Assembly: GCF_018305005.1 (NCBI RefSeq)
Contig: NZ_JAGQEG010000061.1
Coordinates: 1-35,414, forward strand
Length of the DNA stretch: 35,414 nt
Origin: Collimonas silvisoli
GTDB taxonomy: Bacteria; Pseudomonadota; Gammaproteobacteria; Burkholderiales; Burkholderiaceae_D
Direction: 5' to 3'
The first letter of the stretch is position 1. The number at the start of each line of letters is the position of its first letter. The notes below the pieces were generated by a model. The model was not told where the DNA came from. It made no database searches and was given only the letters and a program-made list of their open reading frames with translations. Both the position numbers and the translations under genes were made by a program. Below, in pieces: positions 4,429 through 17,045 of this stretch.

Positions 4429-5727
4429 ATGGCGGCTTCTTATTTTCCCAGATGGCGTCTGCGCGCCAGTCCGGCCGACGGTCAGGGGCAGGTTATCGCT
4501 GCCGACGAACGTTTGCCGTGGCCGCAGACTTTCGCCATGGGGGTGCAGCACGTTGTGGCGATGTTCGGTGCGACGGTGCTGGCGCCATTGCTGATGGGTT
4601 TCGATCCGAATCTGGCGATTTTCATGTCAGGCATCGGCACCTTGCTGTTTTTTGTGCTGGTCGGCGGCCGGGTGCCGAGCTATCTCGGTTCCAGTTTTTC
4701 TTTTATCGGCCTGGTGATTGCGGTCAGCGCCTACGGCGGCCATGGCCTGAATTCCAACCTCGGCGTTGCGTTGGGCGGGATTATCGCCTGCGGCGTGTTG
4801 TACGCGCTGATCGGCTTGCTGGTGATGGCGATCGGCACGCGCTGGATCGAAACCTTGATGCCGCCGGTAGTCACCGGTGCGGTGGTGGCGGTGATCGGGC
4901 TCAATCTGGCGCCGATTGCGGTCAAGGGCGTCAGCGGTAATAACTTCGATGCCTGGATGGCGCTGGGAACGGTCTTGTGCGTCGGCGGCGTCGCCGTGTT
5001 TGCCCGCGGCATGGTGCAGCGGCTGCTGATACTGGTCGGCCTGATGCTGGCCTATGTGATTTATGCGGTGCTGACCAACGGCGCCGGTCTCGGCAAGCCG
5101 ATTGATTTTGGCATAGTCGCGCAAGCTGCCTGGTTCGGCGTCCCGCATTTTTCTGCGCCGGTATTCAAGGCCGATGCAATGGCTTTGCTGGCGCCGATTG
5201 CGATTATCCTGGTGGCAGAAAACCTGGGCCATATCAAGGCGGTGGCCGCCATGACCGGACAAAATCTCGATAAATACATGGGCCGCGCTTTCGTCGGCGA
5301 TGGCTTGGCGACGATTGTCTCGGGCAGCGTCGGCGGCACCGGCGTCACCACTTACGCTGAAAATATCGGCGTGATGGCGGTCACCAAGATTTATTCAACC
5401 TTGGTATTCGTGGTGGCGGCTTGCCTGGCAATCTTCCTGGGTTTCTCACCGAAATTCGGCGCCGTGATTCAAACCATTCCTGGCGCTGTGCTGGGCGGCG
5501 TCTCGAGTGTGGTGTTTGGCTTGATTGCCGTGGCGGGCGCGCGTATCTGGGTCGAGAACAAGGTCGACTTTTCCAACAATCGCAATCTGATCGTGGCTGC
5601 CGTGACCTTGGTGCTGGGGGCCGGCGACTTTACCTTGAAGCTTGGCCAGTTCTCCCTGGGCGGCATCGGCACCGCGACTTTTGGGGCGATTATCCTGCAC
5701 GCTTTGCTGCGGGAAAAGAAGGCTTGA
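4429..5727 (+). CDS. NCS2 (uracil/xanthine-type) nucleobase permease
   Basis: A 432-residue inner-membrane transporter with about 14 hydrophobic segments, normal for the nucleobase-ascorbate transporter family. Clear signatures are LPWPQTFAMGVQHVVAMFGA near the N-terminus (the QH motif), APIAIILVAENLGHIKAV (the substrate-contacting Glu of helix 8) and VGGTGVTTYAENIGVMAVTK (helix 10). The last resembles UraA/RutG rather than the xanthine or urate branches, so a pyrimidine, probably uracil, is the likely substrate, imported with protons. Start: AGAGAGGAAATTC precedes the ATG at 4429; the longer in-frame extension runs back into the previous gene and across its terminator and is rejected. It is a single gene with no metabolic partner in view. 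Confidence 0.92.
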   Translation: MAASYFPRWRLRASPADGQGQVIAADERLPWPQTFAMGVQHVVAMFGATVLAPLLMGFDPNLAIFMSGIGTLLFFVLVGGRVPSYLGSSFSFIGLVIAVSAYGGHGLNSNLGVALGGIIACGVLYALIGLLVMAIGTRWIETLMPPVVTGAVVAVIGLNLAPIAVKGVSGNNFDAWMALGTVLCVGGVAVFARGMVQRLLILVGLMLAYVIYAVLTNGAGLGKPIDFGIVAQAAWFGVPHFSAPVFKADAMALLAPIAIILVAENLGHIKAVAAMTGQNLDKYMGRAFVGDGLATIVSGSVGGTGVTTYAENIGVMAVTKIYSTLVFVVAACLAIFLGFSPKFGAVIQTIPGAVLGGVSSVVFGLIAVAGARIWVENKVDFSNNRNLIVAAVTLVLGAGDFTLKLGQFSLGGIGTATFGAIILHALLREKKA

Positions 5728-5812
5728 ACCAGGCTTGACAGTTCGTCCGTTCATAAAAAAGTTGGACATTGCGCTAGCCGTTCTGCCAAAGTGTGGCAAC
5801 GGCTAGCCTACG

Positions 5813-6352
5813 TTAAGAACTGCGTTTGCGTTGAACCGCCACTGCAGCCGCGGTTCCGGTTGCGTCAGGAGCAATTGGCTTGCGCACGACGGCGTGCAGC
5901 ATGTTCGCTTTTCGCTTGCCCAGCCAGATATGCAGCCATAATCCGGCCGCTGCAGCAGTACCGGCGATCCAGTGGATCAAGCTGATCCACGGACGGGATT
6001 GTTCATCTCCCGCATAGTACAAGCCGTACCCAGTCAGCAACAATACGGCGACAAGCGCCAGCATAAACAGGCCGCTGCGATGGTTTTTCCGTAGCCGCCA
6101 GGCGCTAGCAATGTGACCTGGCAGGAGAGAGCCGATGACCATCAGGAACCCCATCGCCGCCGCGCCATGCAAGCGCAGCCACCACGGCTCGGACGGATGG
6201 TGCGCGTCACCGAATTCTCCAGGAGCGGCAAGGAAATTGTGGGCGATCAGCCAACCGAGACCAGAGAGGAAGAGTATTGCGCCTATCAGATAAATCCAGC
6301 GCTCGTGTTGCCGGCTCAATCGTATCGGCATAGGTGGAATACGTGATTTCAT
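5813..6352 (-). CDS. Four-helix membrane protein, DUF4405-like, probable heme-binding electron carrier
   Basis: A 179-residue inner-membrane protein and last gene of the flavin operon. Its ATG overlaps the apbE stop as ATGA (6349-6352), which fixes the start. Four hydrophobic helices lie at about 19-41, 60-81, 94-114 and 123-144. Histidines sit near both ends of helix 2 (H62, H80) and of helix 4 (H127, H141). A 14-residue His-His spacing within a helix is what bis-His diheme b-type bundles use, and DUF4405/cytochrome b561-like proteins have this form. Heme binding is inference. The loop after helix 1 is rich in His, Trp and Pro (DAHHPSEPWWLRLHG). The C-terminal tail (about 145-179) is basic and Ala-rich. 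Its likely role is passing electrons between the quinone pool and the periplasmic flavoprotein encoded two genes upstream. Confidence 0.85.
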   Translation of the reverse strand: MKSRIPPMPIRLSRQHERWIYLIGAILFLSGLGWLIAHNFLAAPGEFGDAHHPSEPWWLRLHGAAAMGFLMVIGSLLPGHIASAWRLRKNHRSGLFMLALVAVLLLTGYGLYYAGDEQSRPWISLIHWIAGTAAAAGLWLHIWLGKRKANMLHAVVRKPIAPDATGTAAAVAVQRKRSS

Positions 6353-7245
6353 GGCGTTATTTCTGTTTGCAGCAGTCTTGCCCCGCACGAGCGGACGGCC
6401 TGCCCGTCGGTCACGATTGCTTGCGCATTAAAGCGCTCAAGAATAGCCGGCGCATCTATTGGCGCAAGTCGTACAACCTTGGTCAACGCATCGGCGGTCA
6501 TGCAGTCAGGCGCGACGACACTGACACTGTCGCCCCATGTGGTGCAAATCCGTTGTTGCGGGTCGACTAAAGGATCGATCCGATGTTTATCGCTGCCAAT
6601 GCCCGCAAAATATCCGGCTGAGGTAGCAATCGCATGGTTGGATAGGTATCCCAGCGGGATCAGCGAGGCAGGCTGGTCCGGCTGCCGCACATGAATCGCT
6701 TGCGGTTCGCCGAAGCAACGTAAATCTCCGCCCGCATTGACCGTGCCGCTGGCAATGCCGTGCGATTGCAGTGCTGCAATCGCACAATCAACGGCATATC
6801 CTTTCGCTATGCCGCCCAAGTCGATGCATCCACGGCGCTGCCAACGCACGCGGTGGCCATTGAGCAATTCCAGATCGCGATAAGTGACATCGATAGCTGC
6901 CGACTGTTGCAGGCGGTGCGCAGGCAAAAATCCGTTATCCACCAGAACCGCGGCGGTCGAGATGTCGAAAGCGCCTGCGGACAGGTCGCCCAATTGATGC
7001 GCGAATTCCAAGACCTTGAAAGTATGTGGATCAACGCAAATTTCACATGCCGGATCAGCTGCATTAATTCGCGAGACATCGCTGCCCGCGTCGTGAAAAC
7101 TCATCAGCTGCTGGACCCGCTCAATGGCTGCATATGCCGCGTTGCATGCTTCGGACAAGATCGCAGGATCGCCGGCGATCTTGATTTCGACCAGCGTTCC
7201 AAGCAGCGGGCGTGCCCGGCGCAGGCTATTTGAGGGCAACGGCAT
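6349..7245 (-). CDS. apbE: FAD:protein FMN transferase (ApbE)
   Basis: A 298-residue Mg-dependent flavin transferase that links FMN covalently to a Thr/Ser of FMN-binding domains. Visible signatures are RPLLGTLVEI (about 12-21), GAFDIST (91-97), DLGGIAKGYAVD (142-153), VNAGGD (169-174), HRIDP (221-225) and MTADALTK (249-256) with the metal-binding Asp. The immediately upstream gene encodes a protein with the target motif, so the substrate is almost certainly that neighbour. The ATG at 7245 is preferred (20-bp overlap with the upstream gene); an in-frame ATG at 7272 is possible. Neither start gives a signal peptide or lipobox, unlike E. coli ApbE, which is a periplasmic lipoprotein. No strong Shine-Dalgarno is visible, suggesting translational coupling. 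Confidence 0.94.
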   Translation of the reverse strand: MPLPSNSLRRARPLLGTLVEIKIAGDPAILSEACNAAYAAIERVQQLMSFHDAGSDVSRINAADPACEICVDPHTFKVLEFAHQLGDLSAGAFDISTAAVLVDNGFLPAHRLQQSAAIDVTYRDLELLNGHRVRWQRRGCIDLGGIAKGYAVDCAIAALQSHGIASGTVNAGGDLRCFGEPQAIHVRQPDQPASLIPLGYLSNHAIATSAGYFAGIGSDKHRIDPLVDPQQRICTTWGDSVSVVAPDCMTADALTKVVRLAPIDAPAILERFNAQAIVTDGQAVRSCGARLLQTEITP

Positions 7246-7741
7246 ACGTTGCCAGCACGCGCTTGACGCCATCGGCGATGTGCTTGGATGAGAGCGTTGC
7301 TCCGCTGATGTTGCGAATGTCTTTTTCCAGCTTTAACGAGTCTGCCGCGGTCTTGCCGACAAACTGCTTGCGCCATTCCGGATTGCGGACCTCGTAGCCG
7401 TACGATTCCCGGTACTCCATGATTTCGATCTGCTTGACGCTGCCATCTGCGTTCAAGCCGACTGCATACGTAATGAATTCATGCTTGCCGACCACCTCAT
7501 CGAGAATAAACCATCCGCCGCCGGCAACCTTCCACGCCTTGATCTCTTTATGACGGACATTGACGTCTGTCATCTTGTCGATTTGTTTAGCTTGCTCGTC
7601 GCTCAGGGTGATAAACGCGGGTGTGAATTTTTCATTCGGAAAGATGGCTTGCTGCGCCTGTTCCGGCGTGAAATAGGTAGTGGCGTAAACCGATGTCGAA
7701 ATAGCTGCCACCGGAAGCCATATCCATGGACTGTGTTTCAC
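7226..7741 (-). CDS. Exported FMN-binding domain protein, covalent flavinylation target
   Basis: A 171-residue periplasmic flavoprotein. A Sec signal peptide (MKHSPWIWLPVAAISTSVYA, about 1-20) precedes a region with TPEQAQQAIFPNEKF and then the FMN_bind domain (about 70-168): VVGKHEFITYAVGLNADGSV, IEIMEYRESYGYEV and DIRNISGATLSS. The S146-G147-A148-T149 motif is the ApbE flavinylation site, with Thr149 the expected FMN attachment residue. NqrC, RnfG and NosR use the same motif. The start is a GTG at 7741 with AGGGA eight bases upstream. The gene follows the DUF6662 gene by 25 bp and overlaps apbE. Its likely role is a one- or two-electron relay in the periplasm; the redox partner is inferred to be the membrane protein at 5813-6352. 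Confidence 0.93.
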   Translation of the reverse strand: MKHSPWIWLPVAAISTSVYATTYFTPEQAQQAIFPNEKFTPAFITLSDEQAKQIDKMTDVNVRHKEIKAWKVAGGGWFILDEVVGKHEFITYAVGLNADGSVKQIEIMEYRESYGYEVRNPEWRKQFVGKTAADSLKLEKDIRNISGATLSSKHIADGVKRVLATYAVALK

Positions 7742-7766
7742 TTAAGTTCCCTTAGCTTGGTTTCGT

Positions 7767-8690
7767 TTAAAAGTAGTAGCCGGCCTTGATGCGAAGGCGG
7801 CGTCTTTCAAAATCGTTATCGTAGGTTCGGCCGCCCACCAGCGTGCCTGGAACCGTATCGGCATGTGCATGCGCCCAAGGCATTTGTTCCAAAAAGGTCG
7901 CCGTCACAAAGAATTGCTTGCCGCCATAGTGCACGGTCGGGCCAAAATAGTAGCCGCTATTCGATTCGTTTTTGAAGTTATAGCTGTTGTACTCATGTTC
8001 GTTCAAGAGTTCAAATCCCGCCGCCCAGTTCGGCTTGAAGCGATAGGACACTGCGACGTTCGCATTGACATCGGTTTCTTCCTGCCAGCTTCTGCCGGAT
8101 GCTCTGGAGTCATCCGACAGATTCCGCCATTCAGGCGCATAGGTAAAGTTAAAAGCCATGGTCAGGCGGTCATCCAGGAAATTCTTTTGCAAGATGAGCT
8201 TGGTTTCCACTTCGCGGAAGCGGGGGCCGATGGTCGGCTCCACATAGAGCGCTACCCCGATGCCGTCGGTGTAGGGGCTAAGCAAACGGTAGATTGCTTC
8301 TGCCGAGACGCCGACAAAGCGTTTGTCACGGTAGCGCGCATTCGGATCGGGCTGATCGTCGGCAAACTGTTCGGGCGGTGTTGTCGCGCCATCGGGACCG
8401 TTGTGGTAGGCCGATGTCCAGTTATAGTTGCCGTACAGGGCCACCTGCAGCCGATCGGTAAGTCCGTATTCAACCTCGGTACGTCCTTCTACCTGGTCAT
8501 AACGGCCGGCGATTTTCTGGTGACGCCAGGTCATCCACTGCTCGACTTCCTTAGCTCCCTTTGGCAACAGGTCCGTCGTATAGACGTAAGCGAACTGACT
8601 TTCCTCGGCCAATGCAACGATATTGAATCCGCAATACAAGGTTAAGGCAGTGATAAGGAATGCGCCGCCGAAGCGGTGAGAGAGTGTCAT
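7767..8690 (-). CDS. DUF6662-type outer-membrane beta-barrel-like protein
   Basis: A 307-residue exported protein and first gene of the flavin operon. A signal peptide with cleavage after about VALA (residue 28) is followed by alternating aromatic beta-strand patterns (VEYGLTDRLQVALYGNYNW, GYYFGPTVHYGGKQFFVTAT). The C-terminus, RLRIKAGYYF, has the terminal Phe typical of outer-membrane barrels. KGAKEVEQWMTWRHQKIAGR just after the signal is characteristic of what I recall as DUF6662, whose function is unknown. There is no heme-binding CXXCH and no lipobox. The ATG at 8690 lacks a good Shine-Dalgarno. A candidate promoter with an overlapping dyad lies just upstream (8722-8768). It could be an outer-membrane component or substrate channel of the flavin system; this is inference from operon position. 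Confidence 0.82.
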   Translation of the reverse strand: MTLSHRFGGAFLITALTLYCGFNIVALAEESQFAYVYTTDLLPKGAKEVEQWMTWRHQKIAGRYDQVEGRTEVEYGLTDRLQVALYGNYNWTSAYHNGPDGATTPPEQFADDQPDPNARYRDKRFVGVSAEAIYRLLSPYTDGIGVALYVEPTIGPRFREVETKLILQKNFLDDRLTMAFNFTYAPEWRNLSDDSRASGRSWQEETDVNANVAVSYRFKPNWAAGFELLNEHEYNSYNFKNESNSGYYFGPTVHYGGKQFFVTATFLEQMPWAHAHADTVPGTLVGGRTYDNDFERRRLRIKAGYYF

Positions 8691-8721
8691 GATAGTTTTT
8701 ATTGCGGGCTGGAAAAACAGA

Positions 8722-8768
8722 ATAATAAACGCGAATCATTCTTTTTTACAATCAAAGAATTGTAAAAA
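8722..8768 (-). promoter_or_regulatory. Candidate promoter and operator dyad of the flavin operon
   Basis: Reading leftward, TTGTAA (8751-8746) and TATTAT (8727-8722) form a -35/-10 pair with an 18-bp spacer, placing transcription start about 25 bp before the DUF6662 ATG. A perfect dyad, TTTTTACAAT (8743-8752), N6, ATTGTAAAAA (8759-8768), overlaps the -35. Within the spacer, AATGATTC (plus strand GAATCATT, 8733-8740) resembles half of a Fur box, but the full 19-bp match is only about 11 of 19, so Fur control is weakly supported. Confidence 0.5.
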
Positions 8769-8925
8769 TCCGCGATGCTGCGTTTGCGGCTTAATCTGTT
8801 TGAGGAAGGGGTGTTTGCTACAGCCAGGCAGGTTGTTTGGGGCATTCCATCGGAGATGGTTAAAGTCTCATAGCCGGTCCCGGTGACTAGACTAGAGGGG
8901 GCACGGAATTTTTGTAATTCTTGCA

Positions 8926-8962
8926 TTGAAAAATTTCTCCACGAAAATTCCGTGGAGAAATT
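8926..8962 (-). terminator. Intrinsic terminator of betT
   Basis: A perfect 12-bp stem (arms 8932-8943 and 8951-8962, AATTTCTCCACG) has a 7-nt loop and, on the minus strand, is followed by a T run (8934-8927). It sits 21 bp past the betT stop. Confidence 0.85.
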
Positions 8963-8983
8963 CTGACAGCTTGCTAGTATCAA

Positions 8984-10579
8984 CTAAGCTTGCCTGGCGA
9001 CCTTCACAGCGGTTTTTACCGCAATTGCGGGTTTGAATTCCATGCGCAGAGTCTTCAACAGGCAAGCCATATACAGCACCAGCACCATGGAAAACGGCAG
9101 CGACGCCAGTACGATCGTGGTTTGAATCGCACTGATGTTATCCGCAAACATCAAGCCGACGGTGACCGCCATGATCAGCGCCGACCAGAAAATACGCAGC
9201 CAGTGCGGCGCATCGGCGTCGGCATCATGATCACTGCCGCTGCCGCGCACCGATAAATTGGCCAGCATCACGGCGCCCGAGTCGGCCGGTGTCAAAAACA
9301 GCACGAAGCCGACGAAAATCGCCACGCCCGACATCGCCGTGCCAAACGGGTAGTGCGCCAGCAGCATGTACATGGTCATGGCCGGCTGCTCCAGTGCGGT
9401 CCGGCTCAATTCAGTGGCGCCGTGGCTAATCAGCAGATCCAGGGCGCTGTTGCCGAACACCGAGAGCCATGCCAGCGTGAACGCCAACGGCAGCAACAGC
9501 ACGCCGGTCACCACTTCGCGAATGGTGCGTCCGCGTGAGATGCGGGCAATAAACAGGCCGACGAACGGCGCCCAGGAGATCCACCAGGCCCAATAGAACA
9601 GCGTCCACTTGCCGAGCCAGTCGCTAGGCCGGTCATAGGCATACAGGTCAAAAGTCTTGCCGACGAAGTTGCTGATGTAATCGCCCAGATTCTGGGTCAT
9701 TGCGTTCAGCAAATGCAGCGTCGGTCCCATGCTCAGTACAAAAAGCAGCAAGCTGGCAAACAGCAGCACATTCAGATTCGACAAACGGCGGATACCGACT
9801 TCGACGCCGGAAATCGCGGCCAGGGTCGCCACTATCGTCATCACGATGATCACCGCCAGCAGCGTGCCATGGCTGTTTTGCAGGCCGAACAGGTGTTCCA
9901 GGCCGGCGCTGATCTGCAGCGAACCTATGCCCAGGTTGCTGACCAGGCCCAGCACGGTAACCACGATGCCGAAACAATCGACAGCGTGGCCGGCGACGCC
10001 ATGGACGCGCTCGCCGAGCAAGGGATACAGCGCGCTACGCAACGCCAGAGGCTGCTTGTGGCGATACGCAAAGTAGCCTAGCGCTACCGCGATCAGCGCA
10101 TAAATAGCCCAGCCATGCAGGCCCCAATGCAGGAAGGTCAAGGTCATCGCCTGGCTGGCGGCCGCCGGCGTTGCGGCCGCACCCTGTGGCGGATACAGAT
10201 AATGGGTCAAGGGTTCAGAGGCGCCGAAATAGAGCAGGGAAATGCCGATGCCGGACGAGAACAGCATGCCGGCCCAGGCGCCGTAGCTAAAGGCCGGCTG
10301 TTCGTCGTCCGCTCCCAGTTTTATTTTGCCGTAAGGCGATAGCGCCAGCCAGATGATGAAGCCAAGGTAAGCGGCGACCACCAGTATGTAGTACCAGCCG
10401 AAGCTGTTGGCCAGCGTGATTTGCGCGCCCGACAGCCAAACGGTCGAGGCTTGCGGGAAGGCGATGATGACAATGGTGAAGGCGATGATCAGTAATGCTG
10501 ACGAAAAGAAAACAGGGCGGTTGAGTTTGTTCTTGCCCGACTGATGGCCAGCGGCGGTAGCGGCGGCGCTCATTTGCAT
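8984..10579 (-). CDS. betT: BCCT-family choline/glycine betaine transporter
   Basis: A 531-residue inner-membrane importer with about 12 helices, normal for the family. The diagnostic BCCT segment is present as LGKWTLFYWAWWISWAPFVG, followed by ISRGRTIREVVTGVLLLP. The Trp residues of this segment build the aromatic cage for trimethylammonium substrates. The gene is divergent from betI-betB-betA across a BetI-like operator, as in E. coli, so choline is the likely substrate. The C-terminal tail after the last helix is short (about 20 residues), so the long osmosensing tail known from E. coli BetT is absent. Start: ATG 10579 (10573 equally possible). The open frame extends to 10768 but would run through the operator/promoter, so it is rejected. 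No strong Shine-Dalgarno is visible. Confidence 0.93.
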   Translation of the reverse strand: MQMSAAATAAGHQSGKNKLNRPVFFSSALLIIAFTIVIIAFPQASTVWLSGAQITLANSFGWYYILVVAAYLGFIIWLALSPYGKIKLGADDEQPAFSYGAWAGMLFSSGIGISLLYFGASEPLTHYLYPPQGAAATPAAASQAMTLTFLHWGLHGWAIYALIAVALGYFAYRHKQPLALRSALYPLLGERVHGVAGHAVDCFGIVVTVLGLVSNLGIGSLQISAGLEHLFGLQNSHGTLLAVIIVMTIVATLAAISGVEVGIRRLSNLNVLLFASLLLFVLSMGPTLHLLNAMTQNLGDYISNFVGKTFDLYAYDRPSDWLGKWTLFYWAWWISWAPFVGLFIARISRGRTIREVVTGVLLLPLAFTLAWLSVFGNSALDLLISHGATELSRTALEQPAMTMYMLLAHYPFGTAMSGVAIFVGFVLFLTPADSGAVMLANLSVRGSGSDHDADADAPHWLRIFWSALIMAVTVGLMFADNISAIQTTIVLASLPFSMVLVLYMACLLKTLRMEFKPAIAVKTAVKVARQA

Positions 10580-11486: not shown

Positions 11487-12959
11487 ATGCCTGTTTTCAA
11501 GCTACAACAACTATACATCGGCGGCCGCCGGGTCGACGCCAGCGGCAGTGATACTTTTCAGACCATTAATCCTGCCAATGGCGAAGTGCTGGCCGAAGTG
11601 CAGCGCGCCACCAAGGCCGATGTCGACCGCGCCGTCGCCAGTGCACAGCAAGGCCAGCGCGAATGGGCCGCCCAAACCGCCATGCAGCGCTCGCGGGTAC
11701 TGCGCCGTGCGGTAGCGATCCTGCGTGAACGCAATGACGAATTGGCCGAACTGGAAACCCTGGATACCGGCAAGGCCTTGTCGGAAACACGCGCCGTCGA
11801 TATCGTCACCGGCGCCGATGTGCTGGAGTATTACGCCGGCCTGGTGCCGTCGATAGAAGGCACCCAGATCCCGTTGCGCGAAAGTTCGTTTGTCTACACC
11901 CGCCGTGAGCCGCTGGGGGTAGTGGCCGGCATCGGCGCCTGGAATTATCCGATCCAGATCGCCTTGTGGAAATCGGCGCCGGCGCTGGCTGCCGGCAATG
12001 CGATGATTTTCAAGCCTAGCGAAGTGACGCCGCTGAGCACGCTCAAGCTGGCCGAAATCTATACCGAAGCAGGTTTGCCGGATGGCGTCTTCAATGTGCT
12101 GACCGGCAGCGGCCGTGAAGTCGGCAGCTGGCTCACCGAGCATGCCGGCATCGAAAAAATATCGTTCACCGGCGGCACCGCCACCGGCAAGAAAGTGATG
12201 GCCAGCGCCTCCAGCTCGACCTTGAAGGAAGTCACCATGGAGCTGGGCGGCAAGTCACCGCTGATCGTGTTTGCCGACGCCGATCTGGAGCGTGCCGCCG
12301 ATGTCGCCGTGATGGCCAATTTCTACAGTTCGGGCCAGGTGTGCACCAACGGCACCCGGGTGTTTGTGCATAGCTCGATCAAGGCGGCGTTTGAAGCCAA
12401 GGTATTGGAACGAGTAGCGCGTATCCGTCTCGGCAATCCGCTCGACATGCACACCAACTTCGGCCCGCTGGTCAGTTTCCCGCATATGGATAGCGTGCTG
12501 TCTTACATCGAATCTGGCCGTGCCGAAGGCGCACGCCTGTTGATCGGCGGCCAGCGCGAAATCGGCGGCGCCTATGCCAAGGGTGCTTATGTGCAGCCGA
12601 CCGTGTTCACCGATTGCCGCGACGACATGAAGATCGTCCGCGAAGAAATCTTCGGCCCGGTCATGAGCATCCTCAGCTTCGATGAAGAGGACGAAGTGAT
12701 CCGCCGCGCCAACGACACCGAATACGGTCTGGCGGCCGGCCTGATGACAGAAAACCTGAGCCGCGCGCATCGCGTCATCCATCAGTTGGAAGCGGGTATC
12801 TGCTGGATCAATACCTGGGGCGAATCGGCGGCAGAGATGCCGGTTGGCGGTTACAAGCAATCCGGCGTCGGCCGTGAGAACGGTTTGACCACGCTGGAGC
12901 ATTACACACGCATCAAATCGATTCAAGTGGAGCTGGGCGCTTATACCTCGGTGTTCTGA
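11487..12959 (+). CDS. betB: Betaine aldehyde dehydrogenase
   Basis: A 490-residue cytoplasmic enzyme oxidising betaine aldehyde to glycine betaine with NAD(P). The aldehyde dehydrogenase fold shows [20 protein letters not shown] (about 148-167), [19 protein letters not shown] (coenzyme loop), the general base in MELGGKSP (Glu252) and the nucleophile in [13 protein letters not shown] (Cys286). These numbers equal those of the characterised Pseudomonas BetB. The length is standard. Start: ATG 11487 with TTGAGGAGA upstream; the open frame reaching back to 11247 overlaps betI and is rejected. It sits between betI and betA in the usual order. Confidence 0.97.
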
Positions 12960-13032
12960 GCACCGTTCTCCAGCGCAACGTCCATGTTTTACAACGATGC
13001 CGCATCGCCGGCATCGGCAAGGAAGGATCATT

Positions 13033-14712
13033 ATGCAGCAAGCAAAAGAATACGATTACATCATCATCGGCGCCGGTTCGGCAGGCAATGTTCTGGCGAC
13101 ACGATTGACCGAGGACGGCGGCACCAGCGTGCTGTTGCTGGAAGCCGGCGGTCCCGATTACCGTTTCGATTTCCGTACCCAGATGCCGGCGGCGCTGGCG
13201 TTCCCATTGCAGGGCAGGCGTTATAACTGGGCCTATGAAACCGATCCGGAACCGCACATGAATGGCCGCCGCATGGAGTGCGGCCGTGGCAAGGGCTTGG
13301 GCGGCTCGTCGCTGATCAACGGCATGTGCTACATCCGCGGCAACGCGCTGGACTACGATCACTGGGCCAAACGGCCAGGGCTGGAAAGCTGGTCCTACCT
13401 GGATTGCCTGCCGTATTTCAAGAAAGCCGAAACCCGCGACATCGGCGGCAACGATTATCACGGCGGCGACGGTCCGGTCAGCGTGACCACGCCGAAGAGC
13501 GGCAACAACGTGCTCTACCATGCAATGGTGGAGGCCGGCGTGCAAGCAGGTTATCCGCGCACCGATGATCTCAACGGTTATCAGCAGGAGGGCTTCGGCC
13601 CGATGGATCGCACCACGACTCCGCACGGGCGGCGCGCCAGTACCGCGCGCGGTTATCTCGACCAAGCGCGGGCCCGTCCTAATCTGACCATCGTCACGCA
13701 CGCACTGACCGACCGCATACTGTTTGCCGGCAAACGCGCCGTCGGCGTCGCCTGGCTGCATAACGATCAGCCAGATCAACAACATACGGCGCAAGCCAGG
13801 CGCGAAGTGCTGCTGTGTTCGGGTGCGATCGCCTCGCCGCAGATCCTGCAGCGCTCCGGCGTCGGACCGGCGCAGCTGCTGCGTCAGCACGATATTCCCG
13901 TGGTGCTCGATTTGCCCGGCGTCGGCGCCAATTTGCAGGACCATCTGGAAATCTATCAGCAATACGAATGCAAGCAGCCGGTCTCGCTGGCGCCGGCGCT
14001 GAAACCGTGGAATCAGCCGCAAATCGGCGCCGAGTGGTTGTTGATGGGGACCGGCATCGGCGCCAGCAATCAATTCGAAGCCGGTGGTTTCATTCGCAGC
14101 GACGATAGTTTCGAGTGGCCGAATATCCAGTATCACTTCTTGCCGGTAGCGATCAATTACAACGGCAGCAATCCGATCAAGGTCCACAGCTTCCAGGCGC
14201 ACATGGGATCGATGCGTTCGCCGAGCCGTGGCCGGATCCATCTGCGCTCGAAAGATCCGCGCCAGCATCCGAGCATTTTGTTCAACTACATGTCGACCGA
14301 GCAGGATTGGCAGGAATTCCGCAACGGTATCCGGATCACGCGCGACATCATTGCGCAACAGGCGTTGTCAGCCTATGCCGGCCGCGAAATTTCGCCGGGC
14401 GTCCAGGTTCAGACCGATGCCGAGCTGGATGCTTTCGTGCGCCAGCACGCCGAAACCGCTTTCCATCCATCCTGTTCCAACGCCATGGGCTACGACGAGA
14501 TGGCGGTGGTGGATAGCGAGGGGCGGGTGCATGGCTTGCAAGGCCTGCGCGTGGTCGATGCCTCGATCATGCCGCAGATCACCACCGGCAACCTGAATGC
14601 ACCGACCATCATGATCGCTGAAAAAATCGCCGATCAGATTCGCGGGCGGCAACCGTTGCCGCGGGTGGAAGTGCCGTATTACGTCGCTGGCGACAAGCCG
14701 GCACGGCAATAA
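13033..14712 (+). CDS. betA: Choline dehydrogenase
   Basis: A 559-residue GMC-family flavoprotein that oxidises choline to betaine aldehyde, membrane-associated and feeding the respiratory chain. The FAD-binding motif [16 protein letters not shown] is at about 10-25, the GMC signature [20 protein letters not shown] around 95-114, and the second signature [16 protein letters not shown] near 270-285. The catalytic His lies in HPSCSNAMG (about 478), and the C-terminal FAD-contact region is [19 protein letters not shown]. Start: ATG 13033 with GGAAGGA upstream. Length and motifs match bacterial BetA. The gene ends 9 bp from the convergent MFS gene with no obvious terminator between, so read-through in either direction is possible. 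Confidence 0.96.
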
Positions 14713-14721
14713 TCTTCCGTG

Positions 14722-15984
14722 TCAGGCCTGTTGGAATGTGGCGATGAGCAGCGCTGCCATGGCATAGGCGATACCGGCCAGGCAGACGCCGCTCCAGCCG
14801 CCCATGACCCAGGCCAGCGCCGCGCTCGCCGCGCCCAGTGCGCCGCCAACGAAGAAAATGCCAACGAACAAACCGTTCAAACGGCCGCGCGCTTCCGCTT
14901 GCAGCAGGTTGATGGCGCGCCGGCCCAGGGTTTGATCGGTGGTTACGCCGGCGTCCAATCCGACGGCGGCGAGCACCAGCATGCCTAGCGCCAGCCAGGG
15001 ATGCAGGGCGATGGCAAAACCGCCCCAGCCGGCGCCAGCCACGCCCGCCAGCAGCAGCGCAGCTATCATCAGCAGATGCGCGGCCAGGGTGGCGGGCCGG
15101 GTCCAGCCGCGATCGCCGATGCGGCCGGCCAGTGGTGCGGCTACTGCGCCGGCAGCGCCTGCCAACGCGAACAAGGCGATATGGCGCTGGTTCATGTCGA
15201 AGGGCTGCTGCGTCAGAAGCAGGGCGACCGCCGTCCAGAACAGGCTGAAGGTGGCCATCCCCAGCGCTGCGGTAAGCGCACGCCGGCGCAGCACCGGCTG
15301 GCTGCACAGCAAACCCCATAGCGATTTGAGCAAAGCCAGATAAGACAGGCCGGCCGCAGGCTGGCGTTGCGGCAGCGTAAGGCTCAGGGTTGCCGCTACC
15401 AGGGAGATCGAGATCGTCAGCACCAGGTATAGCAGGCGCCAGCCGCCCGCATCCAGCAACAGGCTGGCCAGCGGCCGCGACAGCAAAATGCCGAACATCA
15501 GGCCGCTCATCACATTGCCCACCACCTTGCCGCGATGCGCTTCGCAAGCCATCAGGGCCGCCAGCGGCACCATGATCTGGATTGCGCTGGAGGCAGCGCC
15601 GGCCAAAAAAATCGCCAGCAGGAACAGCCAGCCGGAAGTCGACAGCGTGGCCGCCGCCAGCGCCAGGGCGCAGCAAGCCAGCAGGCGCACGATCAAACTG
15701 CGGTTTTCCAGCAGGTCGGCTAACGGCACCAGCAACACCAAGCCAGTGGCATAACCCAGTTGCGGCAACATGGCGACCATGCCGCTCAAGTGCGCATCCA
15801 GACCCAGCGCAGCGGCAATAGGGCCGATCAGCGTCTGTGTCGCGAATAAATTAATCACGGTGATACCGACTGCGGTGGCGAACAACAGTTGCAGCGCAAC
15901 GGGAATGCCATTGCCGGCGCTGCGGGTGGCGCTAGATTGGGAGGTAGCGTAGGTGGCGCTTGAGGGGAGTCGAGGTGCGGTCAT
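14722..15984 (-). CDS. MFS transporter, probable exporter
   Basis: A 420-residue major-facilitator protein with 12 hydrophobic segments. Motif-A-like sequence LVPLADLLENRSLIVRL follows helix 2, and helices 4-6 contain GAASSAIQIMVPLAAL and HRGKVVGNVMSGLMFGILLS. The loop-8 region has PLAGRIGDRG. This resembles the YgaY/NepI-type proton-linked efflux proteins, but the substrate cannot be read from sequence. The ATG at 15984 (GAAGA upstream) was chosen because it precedes a short, Ser/Thr/Ala-rich cytoplasmic head; an earlier ATG at 16047 would add 21 unrelated residues. It is divergent from a LysR gene, the usual layout for a regulator and its target exporter. Confidence 0.9.
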   Translation of the reverse strand: MTAPRLPSSATYATSQSSATRSAGNGIPVALQLLFATAVGITVINLFATQTLIGPIAAALGLDAHLSGMVAMLPQLGYATGLVLLVPLADLLENRSLIVRLLACCALALAAATLSTSGWLFLLAIFLAGAASSAIQIMVPLAALMACEAHRGKVVGNVMSGLMFGILLSRPLASLLLDAGGWRLLYLVLTISISLVAATLSLTLPQRQPAAGLSYLALLKSLWGLLCSQPVLRRRALTAALGMATFSLFWTAVALLLTQQPFDMNQRHIALFALAGAAGAVAAPLAGRIGDRGWTRPATLAAHLLMIAALLLAGVAGAGWGGFAIALHPWLALGMLVLAAVGLDAGVTTDQTLGRRAINLLQAEARGRLNGLFVGIFFVGGALGAASAALAWVMGGWSGVCLAGIAYAMAALLIATFQQA

Positions 15985-16072
15985 AGCATTCTTCGCGAGG
16001 GCGGGCAGCGGTGTCGGCGGAGTCCTATTCCTGGCAGCCCGTTTCAATGCACCGATTGTGCATCTGCGATGT

Positions 16073-16111
16073 TTATGCTACAAGTGAATTATTGTCATAA
16101 ATATTATGCTA
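16073..16111. promoter_or_regulatory. Candidate LysR binding region
   Basis: Direct repeats TTATGCTA at 16073-16080 and 16104-16111 are 31 bp apart, close to three helical turns. A perfect inverted repeat, CATAA-ATA-TTATG, is at 16096-16108. All lie in the A+T-rich 149-bp gap between the MFS and LysR genes. Confidence 0.5.
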
Positions 16112-16133
16112 ATTTGTTTGTGAAAATTCATCC

Positions 16134-17045
16134 ATGAATACGCATGACATCGAAGCCTTCGTCGCCGTGGTCGAGACCGGTTCCATCGTCGCTGCCGCGA
16201 CCCGCCTGCACCTGACCCAGCCCGGCATCAGCCGGCGTGTCCAAAGCCTGGAAGAGCGGCTGGGGGTGGCGTTGCTGGAGCGGCAATCGAAACCGCTCAA
16301 ACCGACTGCGGCTGGCCGCGAGGTTTACCAGCGCGGCCGCCGTGTGCTGGGATCGGTTGCTGATTTGTTGGCCGGCGTGGAAACAGGGTCGGAGGCAAGC
16401 GGCGAATTCCGCCTGGGAGTTGCGCCATTTCTGGCCGAACTGGCCCTGACTCAGCCCATCGATCGCTTGCGCAGCGAGTTCGTCAAGCTGACCTTGCGCA
16501 TTACGACCGGCTGGTCGCCGACGCTGCTGACTCTGCTGGAAAGCAATGCGATTGACGCGGCTGCAGTGGTCTTGCCTGACGATGTGATGCCGCCCAATAC
16601 ACTGACCACGCATCTGCTTTGTCATCAAATGCCGGTGATCGTGGCGCATCGTGAAGCACCACTGCGCAAGGGCCGTTTGTCGTTGCTGGAACTAGCGTCG
16701 CAAGCCTGGGTGCTGAATCAGGATGGCTGCGGCATACGCCGCTCGATCCGCCATACGCTGGACGCAGTGCGTTTGCCGATGGAGATTGCGGTGGAAACTT
16801 TCGGCACTGAGTTGCAATTGTCGCTGGTGGCGCGCGGCGTCGGCATCGGCATGGTGATGCCTGGCGCTTTGGCGCGTAGTGCATTTCGCGATGAGTTGCG
16901 GGTGTTGCAGGTGCCTGAATTCAAGGCCGGCGTGAATACCTGGCTGGTGCATGCCCGGGCGCCGGGGCGGCTGGCTGCGCCGATTGAACGCTTGCGTCAG
17001 GATATGAGTGAGATGCTGGATGCGGAGGAGGGCTTGCCGCTTTGA
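16134..17045 (+). CDS. LysR-family transcriptional regulator
   Basis: A 303-residue regulator of typical length. The winged helix-turn-helix covers residues 1-60: MNTHDIEAFVAVVETGS, AAATRLHLTQPGISRRVQSL, EERLGVALLERQ. A linker helix and a periplasmic-binding-like effector domain follow (about 90-295), including LRKGRLSLLELASQAWVLNQ and SLVARGVGIGMVMPGALARS. The inducer is unknown. Divergent transcription from the MFS gene and the repeats between them suggest it controls that transporter and itself. The ATG at 16134 has no strong Shine-Dalgarno. A strong terminator follows. Confidence 0.93.
   Translation: MNTHDIEAFVAVVETGSIVAAATRLHLTQPGISRRVQSLEERLGVALLERQSKPLKPTAAGREVYQRGRRVLGSVADLLAGVETGSEASGEFRLGVAPFLAELALTQPIDRLRSEFVKLTLRITTGWSPTLLTLLESNAIDAAAVVLPDDVMPPNTLTTHLLCHQMPVIVAHREAPLRKGRLSLLELASQAWVLNQDGCGIRRSIRHTLDAVRLPMEIAVETFGTELQLSLVARGVGIGMVMPGALARSAFRDELRVLQVPEFKAGVNTWLVHARAPGRLAAPIERLRQDMSEMLDAEEGLPL

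Follow-up and report, generated by a model that had tools for sequence, protein, structure and literature searches.

A four-gene DUF6662, FMN_bind, ApbE and cytochrome cassette under a Fur-like box in Collimonas silvisoli: a candidate flavin-based ferric reductase

Four genes and the proteins they encode

Four leftward genes lie close together in the window (the whole 35,414-nucleotide stretch of Collimonas silvisoli DNA that was analysed). A 25-bp gap separates the DUF6662 and FMN_bind genes, a 20-bp overlap joins the FMN_bind and ApbE genes (ApbE start at 7245), and a 4-bp overlap, ATGA, joins the ApbE gene to the fourth (end at 6349, start at 6352). The gene coordinates (Table 1) bear out in full the layout described in the first-pass annotation.

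Table 1. Features of the cassette (positions in the window).
Feature	Position	Strand	Basis
DUF6662 gene	7767..8690	-	307 aa, PF20367 match
Exported FMN_bind gene	7226..7741	-	171 aa, GTG start, PF04205 match
SGAT motif, predicted FMN attachment at Thr149	7295..7306	-	sequence; T149 invariant among relatives
ApbE (FAD:protein FMN transferase) gene	6349..7245	-	298 aa, PF02424 match
Four-helix membrane protein, probable diheme cytochrome b	5813..6352	-	179 aa, invariant H62, H80, H127, H141
Candidate promoter TTGTAA-18-TATTAT	8722..8751	-	promoter search, not above chance alone
Fur-like box AAGAATGATTCGCGTTTAT	8725..8743	-	53 bp before DUF6662 ATG; matrix score
Whole unit absent from same-genus genomes	5728..8983	-	comparison with same-genus genomes

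The first protein matches PF20367 at 53 bits (cut-off 27). Its AlphaFold2 model has 12 strands (pLDDT 92.2), and the best Foldseek matches are FapF (5o67/5o65), followed by a COG4313 channel (4rl8). These channels are similar in barrel size, with TM-scores of 0.53-0.62 normalised to the model, but share only 10-12% identity with DUF6662, and a PDB sequence search gave no match at E up to 1. A hydrophobic leader is present in 52 of 52 DUF6662 proteins, the window protein ends in YYF, and charged residues are conserved on what should be the lumen side. The leader, the even number of strands, the fold matches and the C-terminal aromatic residue extend the earlier description of an exported barrel-like protein to a predicted 12-strand outer-membrane barrel. 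FapF has a plug and a coiled coil, for which we noticed no counterpart in DUF6662. A search of the literature by the name DUF6662 found nothing.

The second protein scores 47.6 bits against PF04205 (cut-off 22) and carries an SGAT-type motif, as had been claimed; GATLS, with T149, is kept in 39 of 39 aligned relatives, and FMN is presumably attached covalently to Thr149. It is neither NqrC (22.1 against a cut-off of 144, NCBIfam nqrC) nor RnfG (25.4 against 102, NCBIfam rnfG), and a search of viral contigs with it gave no matches. The ApbE assignment is secure at 158.1 bits against PF02424 (cut-off 25.6), and the genome has no other ApbE match. A simple hydropathy rule finds a hydrophobic leader in none of 48 cassette ApbEs, so that the export signal or lipoprotein anchor of a classical periplasmic ApbE is not seen; this is no special mark of the cassette, because control ApbEs from the same bacterial family look alike (leader in just 2 of 30 by the same rough rule).

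The fourth protein is probably a diheme b-type cytochrome. Its model has four helices (pLDDT 92.7), and four histidines (H62, H80, H127 and H141 in the window) are invariant in 48 of 48 sequences, the number that DUF4405-type proteins conserve for two hemes, which are predicted here. The view of it as a four-helix, diheme-like protein with paired histidines therefore stands, but the DUF4405 label attached to it does not, because its score against PF14358 (18.8-20 bits) is below the cut-off of 26.7 and its model has four transmembrane helices, against six in the DUF4405 models shown by Huang et al. 2024 (PMC11334425). Among its relatives at E <= 0.01, PF01292 (cytochrome b561) is found in 16 of 46 and DUF4405 in 5 of 46. 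Foldseek gave weak matches, none with E under 0.001 and with soluble bundles ranked at the top, and a PDB sequence search gave zero matches at E up to 1. Searches of Pfam and NCBIfam matched none of the four proteins to a known catalytic subunit, in agreement with the first reading of the locus.

Conservation of the set and exchange of the barrel

Conservation of the gene set beyond close relatives had been fixed beforehand as a test, and it was passed: all four genes occur in the same order and on the same strand in 46 of the 52 other DUF6662 loci fetched, which were picked by DUF6662 similarity regardless of their neighbours. The association exceeds chance. Two plasmid loci (Novosphingobium, Sphingomonas) also have the conserved order. 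The distribution is patchy and the cassette comes as a unit; in same-genus genomes a RutG-like permease gene and a BetT-like transporter gene are adjacent with nothing of the cassette between them, while in the window the cassette sits between the two.

In 50 of 52 DUF6662 loci a barrel gene lies next to the gene for the flavoprotein. Barrels can be exchanged over a core that persists. A porin takes the place of the DUF6662 barrel at other loci, the history of the barrel differs from that of the core at one locus, and neither barrel family lies beside the core's FMN gene in 22 of 67 classifiable places. That the barrel is swapped while the electron-supplying core is steadier suggests a plug-in arrangement, with the substrate determined by the barrel.

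Porin-cytochrome conduits (MtrAB, PioAB) and Cyc2 join an outer-membrane barrel to a periplasmic redox protein, and the cassette likewise encodes both. It differs in having a predicted FMN in place of c-type heme (there is no CxxCH in the four translations, where a conduit of this kind would have a c-type cytochrome) and in the smaller size of its barrel and carrier. A flavin version of such a conduit, with the FMN_bind protein docked in the DUF6662 barrel and electrons crossing the outer membrane to an external acceptor, would fit the close linkage of barrel and flavoprotein, the use of another barrel type in the same slot elsewhere and the conserved charges of the lumen; moreover, no flavinylated porin conduit was found among the best literature matches. 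We nevertheless regard it as quite improbable, as no second cofactor is known that would help a single FMN to span the outer membrane, the histories of barrel and core are partly separate, and the core's FMN gene so often lacks both barrel families. Equally doubtful, taken as a whole, is its fuller form, in which a small acid-lined barrel and a flavoprotein with one covalent FMN would pass electrons from the inner-membrane cytochrome to iron on or outside the cell surface, as a c-heme-free conduit exchanged as a four-gene cassette.

Exchange of the barrel over a constant core, as if the barrel set the range of substrates, would also suit a barrel that admits an acceptor other than iron, respired by the core in the periplasm, with Fur control reflecting the iron or oxygen state indirectly; so would the arrival of a patchy cassette as a unit. 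This is very unlikely: no known catalytic subunit is matched by any of the four proteins, and Fur-like sites are the sole regulatory signal found, FNR/ANR-like and NarL-like patterns each being absent upstream of DUF6662 at all 53 loci.

Rough gene calls on 48 loci, taken beyond the four genes, gave few recurring neighbours. One cluster, in 11 loci, has an ABC transporter as its one scanned member; two others (6 and 4 loci) have signalling proteins as scanned members; and another, seen in 13 loci, consists mostly, by position, of opposite-strand frames. A porin recurs in 7 flanks, 6 from one genus group and one at this genome's second locus, where an FMN_bind-cytochrome pair adjoins a catalase gene; a PDB sequence search with the second-locus porin gave chance-looking matches only.

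A Fur-like box and the link to iron

The single candidate promoter proposed earlier does exist as a site, and a predicted Fur box lies across it, covering the spacer and extending into the -10 element, but on its own it is no better than chance, because positions 5600-9100 hold two promoter-like sites, where shuffled sequences average 2.4. The box scores 14.5 bits with a matrix built without the window's group. None of 300 shuffles reaches this score; 2.6% of 153 control upstreams (taken before other genes of these loci) do, and among 132 tiles of 400 bp from two contigs of this genome only the tile holding the box itself does. With the plain Fur consensus the best match in the window is 12/19, in another register.

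Matches to the consensus of at least 13/19 within 200 bp were found at 19 of 53 DUF6662 loci (the window included), against 11 of the 153 controls. Under leave-group-out matrices 34 of 53 loci, or 19 of 29 groups, have a site within 200 bp in the controls' top 5%, and 9 of 53 loci reach the top 1%; as the matrix started from the Fur consensus and was then refined with the upstream regions of DUF6662 genes, these have an advantage over the controls, a bias that leaving groups out lessens but does not remove. A good box within 200 bp is lacking at 19 of 53 loci, including the Bradyrhizobium loci and G459. Nine of these 19 have a distal one: when 14 loci were rechecked at 400 bp, a set without a matched control, 10 showed boxes that score 14.0-21.7 bits and lie between -270 and -380. 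The box at the promoter and its recurrence at other loci point to iron as the likely substrate, a question that the first reading had left open.

Iron genes of this genome have comparable sites. Two TonB receptor genes are preceded by boxes that differ from the consensus at 1 and 3 positions, and one with 3 mismatches lies about 300 bp upstream of the feoB match (0 with the reversed-pattern control); an ftrABCD-like operon is preceded by a Fur-like box of 18.8 bits, and 6 of 28 TonB-receptor upstreams reach the score of the window box. Within the window, iron-transport genes are missing both from the cassette and from the positions next to it, and annotation of the few neighbours that recur brought none to light.

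The same core without DUF6662 has a top-5% Fur-box score at only 3 of 38 loci, and the core is therefore not tied to iron as such. This would suit an iron-controlled system with no part in iron import, a redox-homeostasis or respiratory line (serving, for example, the repair of proteins or an organic acceptor) that is switched on when the cell is short of iron-rich cytochromes, with flavin in place of c-type heme as the periplasmic carrier; the pair beside the catalase gene would suit it too, and replacement between flavins and cytochromes is discussed by Meheust et al. 2021 (PMC8238504). We consider it unlikely, since sparing iron makes an outer-membrane channel unnecessary, the cytochrome itself is expected to carry two hemes, and the Fur box is associated with the barrel-bearing loci.

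A possible ferric reductase and its published relatives

We give a probability of roughly 0.6 to the cassette being a self-contained, Fur-controlled quinol-to-flavin ferric reductase that serves iron acquisition. At low iron Fur would leave the promoter and the operon would be expressed. The cytochrome would take electrons from quinol and pass them over two hemes, at H80/H141 on the cytoplasmic side and H62/H127 on the periplasmic side, to FMN on Thr149 of the exported protein, where the cassette's own ApbE would have attached it. At the outer membrane or within the periplasm the flavin would then reduce ferric species, with the DUF6662 barrel as the channel by which a ferric (or cationic) substrate enters. 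The genome encodes FeoB and the FtrABCD-like system, either of which would import the Fe(II) product. The general line from quinol through heme and FMN towards the outer membrane, proposed at first reading, is supported as an idea, and so are the exported barrel, the SGAT protein, ApbE, the probable diheme cytochrome and a linkage reaching well past close relatives.

Systems that pair a carrier flavinylated by ApbE with a DUF4405-like cytochrome are already published (Huang et al. 2024, PMC11334425); the DUF4405/FezC flavinylation clusters likewise combine genes for ApbE, for an extracytosolic protein that is flavinylated and for a small multi-histidine membrane cytochrome. The present cytochrome departs from them in its helix number and its score against DUF4405, and neither DUF6662 nor a Fur box figures in the descriptions of these clusters that were consulted. 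The earlier statement that no function is described for this exact set thus holds only for the set with DUF6662, because the general kind is published; no description of a DUF6662-FMN_bind-ApbE set was found in the paper passages searched. Clusters of PepSY, DUF2271 and ApbE genes are reported as Fur-repressed and tied to iron reduction (Meheust et al. 2021, PMC8238504), and an iron/Fur table for Caulobacter includes DUF2271 and ApbE genes (PMC3751524). As described by Meheust et al., the PepSY/DUF2271/ApbE clusters resemble the cassette in Fur control (predicted here), ApbE, a flavinylated periplasmic protein and an electron-transfer membrane protein, but the four proteins have no Pfam match to PepSY or DUF2271, and a 12-strand barrel stands where those clusters sometimes have a TonB receptor in the outer membrane.

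The cassette is best read as a variant of the published flavinylation/cytochrome-b systems, set apart by the Fur-like box and the partnership with DUF6662. For the unnamed family DUF6662 this provides a fold, a probable cellular location and a constant set of partners; a flavinylation system would also be tied to iron control via an outer-membrane barrel other than a TonB receptor. It becomes a testable question whether the Proteobacteria that carry the cassette use a covalent flavin, along with a simple channel, for reducing Fe(III) in their envelope. A DUF6662-like neighbour of FTR1 was seen in 0 of 17 FTR1 loci fetched; a barrel-cupredoxin-FTR1 set does occur in Methylocella, as a single case.

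Predicted electron line of the cassette

The four-gene cassette, a core of FMN_bind, ApbE and cytochrome genes joined to a DUF6662 protein predicted to form an outer-membrane barrel, probably works as an electron line from quinol through flavin to ferric iron. Quinol would feed a cytochrome b whose two hemes carry electrons to the periplasmic face; from there they would pass to FMN on Thr149 of the FMN_bind protein, and then to a ferric species let in by the DUF6662 channel. The resulting Fe(II) might be imported via FeoB or an FtrABCD-like system. This order follows the known behavior of such parts (PMC11334425, PMC8238504), and iron is proposed as the substrate because of predicted Fur control. 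The wider kind is published: PMC11334425 describes DUF4405-like cytochromes together with carriers flavinylated by ApbE, and PMC8238504 describes PepSY/DUF2271/ApbE clusters repressed by Fur. No mention of DUF6662 was found in the literature searched, nor, in the passages covered, any account of this set with an outer-membrane barrel.

The sequence bears out the four genes and spacings of the first-pass annotation. Its labels DUF6662, FMN_bind and ApbE are secure by Pfam; DUF4405 falls short, the fourth protein scoring 18.8 bits against a cut-off of 26.7. The model of this 179-residue protein has four helices (pLDDT 92.7), with H62, H80, H127 and H141 invariant in 48 of 48 sequences and in all 46 of an alignment. 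The histidine pairs lie 18 apart in helix 2 and 14 apart in helix 4, and such paired spacing in two helices is typical of diheme b cytochromes. PF01292 is the commonest Pfam match among the relatives, reached at E <= 0.01 by 16 of 46. Structural matches are weak, with cytochrome b of E. coli hydrogenase-1 (TM-score 0.57, E 0.02) ranking below soluble four-helix bundles.

The DUF6662 model (AlphaFold2, 52 aligned sequences) has 12 strands, with pLDDT 92.2 and pTM 0.85. Foldseek matches it first to FapF (E 1e-9; its two best chains have TM-scores of 0.58 and 0.60) and next to a COG4313 outer-membrane channel. The lipid side of each strand was taken as its more hydrophobic parity, by rule and not from coordinates, so the alternation, with a hydropathy gap of 0.7 to 4.4 units between sides, is partly by construction. 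By the same rule, the non-lipid side carries residues conserved across the 52 sequences, many of them Glu: E48 (51), E72 (50), E74 (51), E162 (49), E205 (45), E227 (51) and E233 (41), as well as R217 (52) and H254 (51). A channel lined with acids in this way would suit a cation. All 52 proteins have a strong hydrophobic core in their first 32 residues. A distant relative in Methylocella tundrae (own HMM E 5e-18, Pfam Phenol_MetA_deg) is followed directly by a cupredoxin and then an FTR1 iron permease.

An SGAT-type motif (strict pattern) occurs in 48 of 52 FMN proteins, and GATLS in all 39 aligned. Their leaders look like Sec signals, judging by sequence; 38 of 52 have a strong hydrophobic core in the first 32 residues, RR occurs in two, and the lipobox pattern in none of the 52. 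A hydrophobic leader stretch was found in 0 of 48 cassette ApbEs, 0 of 30 ApbEs from other FMN loci, and no more than 2 of 30 controls, which are ApbEs from the bacterial family; the anchor used for the scan is rough, and in some controls it is misplaced. Most ApbEs are secreted and cytosolic ones exist too, according to a review (PMC12052999). The ApbEs of the window and of loci L220-L249 are mostly leaderless, though the cassette's substrate is exported. Three loci (L146, L154, L156) have an open frame ahead of their FMN and cytochrome genes; the frames share a similar FSGST-IRKSCD tail at the end, whose SGST may be another flavinylation motif.

Coordinates of the features discussed
Feature	Sequence	Positions	Strand
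Cassette	window	8690-5813	leftward
ApbE gene	window	6349-7245	leftward
Predicted Fur-like box, across the candidate promoter before the DUF6662 gene	window	8743-8725	
Perfect inverted repeat TACAAT-N6-ATTGTA	window	8747-8764	
Cassette and promoter, putative insertion	window	5728-8983	
OprO/P-like porin, FMN_bind and four-His cytochrome	own genome, contig C12 (L058)	12317-16299	
Distant DUF6662 relative and neighbors	Methylocella tundrae plasmid (L252)	3452-5770	

Predicted iron control

Fur-like boxes were sought in 53 upstreams, those of the window and 52 DUF6662 loci. A consensus scan of 300 bp finds at least 13/19 matches in 24 of them, versus 4.8% of shuffles. At 200 bp, 19 of 53 reach that level; among 153 control upstreams, taken from other genes of these loci, 11 do. 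At least 12/19 is reached by 36 of the former and 26 of the latter. The window site, at -53, scores 14.5 bits by a matrix made without the window's group, a score that none of 300 shuffles and 2.6% of the controls attain. With each group left out in turn, 34 of 53 loci (19 of 29 groups) fall in the controls' top 5%, and 9 of the 53 loci in their top 1%. The matrix started from the Fur consensus and was refined with the upstreams of DUF6662 genes, and so is biased towards these loci. Rescanning 14 loci at 400 bp (a length picked after the 300-bp result, using a matrix that was not leave-group-out and no matched 400-bp control) gives ten with boxes between -270 and -380 (14.0 to 21.7 bits), one with a box at -138 (L078), and three with none; L078 and one of the distal ten (L088) are already among the 34. 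For the two cassettes on plasmids the scores are 12.7 and 14.2 bits, versus 9.5 for the controls' 95th percentile.

As a positive control, the same genome has boxes that differ from the consensus at 1-3 positions ahead of two TonB receptors and, at a distance of about 300 bp, ahead of the feoB match; the reversed pattern gives none. An 18.8-bit site precedes an ftrABCD-like operon, in which FTR1 is assigned by Pfam and P19, cupredoxin and polyferredoxin by sequence reading. Upstreams of 6 among 28 TonB receptors score at least as high as the window. As a negative control, two of the genome's contigs were cut into 132 tiles of 400 bp, and only the cassette-promoter tile reaches that score. Of the 53 upstreams, the window's alone has the inverted repeat, which lies just upstream of the box.

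Conservation, and absence from other genomes of the genus

Loci were gathered by DUF6662 similarity alone; besides the window, 52 were examined (15 from genome contigs, 37 further stretches; L058, not chosen by DUF6662, is counted apart). The set proposed as one operon recurs with all four genes in identical order and strand in 46 of the 52. Three of the others (L053, L064, L078) have DUF6662 and FMN_bind only; in one (L065) DUF6662 diverges from FMN_bind-ApbE and no cytochrome match is present; two (L068, L070) have DUF6662 alone, with a full cassette elsewhere in the same genomes (L069, L087). FMN_bind therefore adjoins DUF6662 in 50 of 52 loci, upholding the suggested linkage, and does so in all three genomes represented by short loci only (G243, G413, G576; L025, L020, L019). 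By a hand count of genus-level groups that may overlap, there are 31 for the 52 loci and 28 for the 46 full cassettes. Hosts include Variovorax, Ralstonia, Dyella, Rhodanobacter, Luteibacter, Bradyrhizobium and a Hyphomicrobiaceae MAG, and plasmids of Novosphingobium and Sphingomonas carry all four genes.

The spread is patchy. In the DUF6662 search, the order has it in 28 of 399 genomes and the family in 7 of 195, own genome included in each, while 0 of 11 others of the genus do. Eight same-genus genomes, with a full-length BetT-like match, were aligned to the window; DUF6662 and FMN_bind queries give no match in the eight loci. The RutG-like permease lies beside BetT in seven (gap 50 bases to about 1 kb), and the eighth contig ends at the BetT flank. 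In the closest relative (L211), alignment breaks at 8983 and restarts at 5727, the two ends lying about 50 bases apart in that genome. Because the flanks adjoin where the cassette is missing, an insertion of about 3.26 kb is the simplest reading; repeated loss among these relatives may instead account for the same pattern.

Exchange of the barrel

Compared pair by pair, identities covary among the three core genes (r 0.84-0.87), and less so for the barrel (0.58-0.73). In one genome, G459 (L079), the FMN protein shares 82% identity with that of the window, the DUF6662 only 28%. The core tree places it in the window's six-row clade (SH-aLRT 100); the barrel tree places it elsewhere and rejects the forced clade (p-AU 8e-6), in quick trees with some long branches and for a group named from the core comparison.

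Across the order's 399 genomes, the FMN protein family occurs at 69 places in 61 genomes; 28 of the places adjoin DUF6662 by our count. Among the other 41, a porin occupies the same upstream slot in 14 and lies downstream in 3; 22 have neither barrel family nearby, and 2 are at contig ends. The porins have a coiled-coil-like N-terminus, and Porin_O_P is above cut-off in 3 of 7 scanned, the own genome's member falling below. Both barrels occur together at six loci, all from one genus group. Fur-like boxes are rare at DUF6662-free loci (3 of 38 reach the top 5%). So barrels of more than one kind occur at the loci that the core serves, and the iron signal follows DUF6662.

A genome search finds one ApbE in the C. 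silvisoli genome, the cassette's, and two FMN_bind proteins, the second (49% identical) belonging to the porin set on contig C12. Neither an adjoining ApbE nor a good Fur-like box was found for that set; some 100 bases past it, on the opposite strand, is a catalase gene. Six small genomes of genus g61 (1.6-2.1 Mb; L143, L151, L171, L174-L176) carry an FMN-ApbE-cytochrome core with neither barrel family near it, and in L143, L171 and L174 a gene that reads as quinone-oxidoreductase-like lies upstream of the core.
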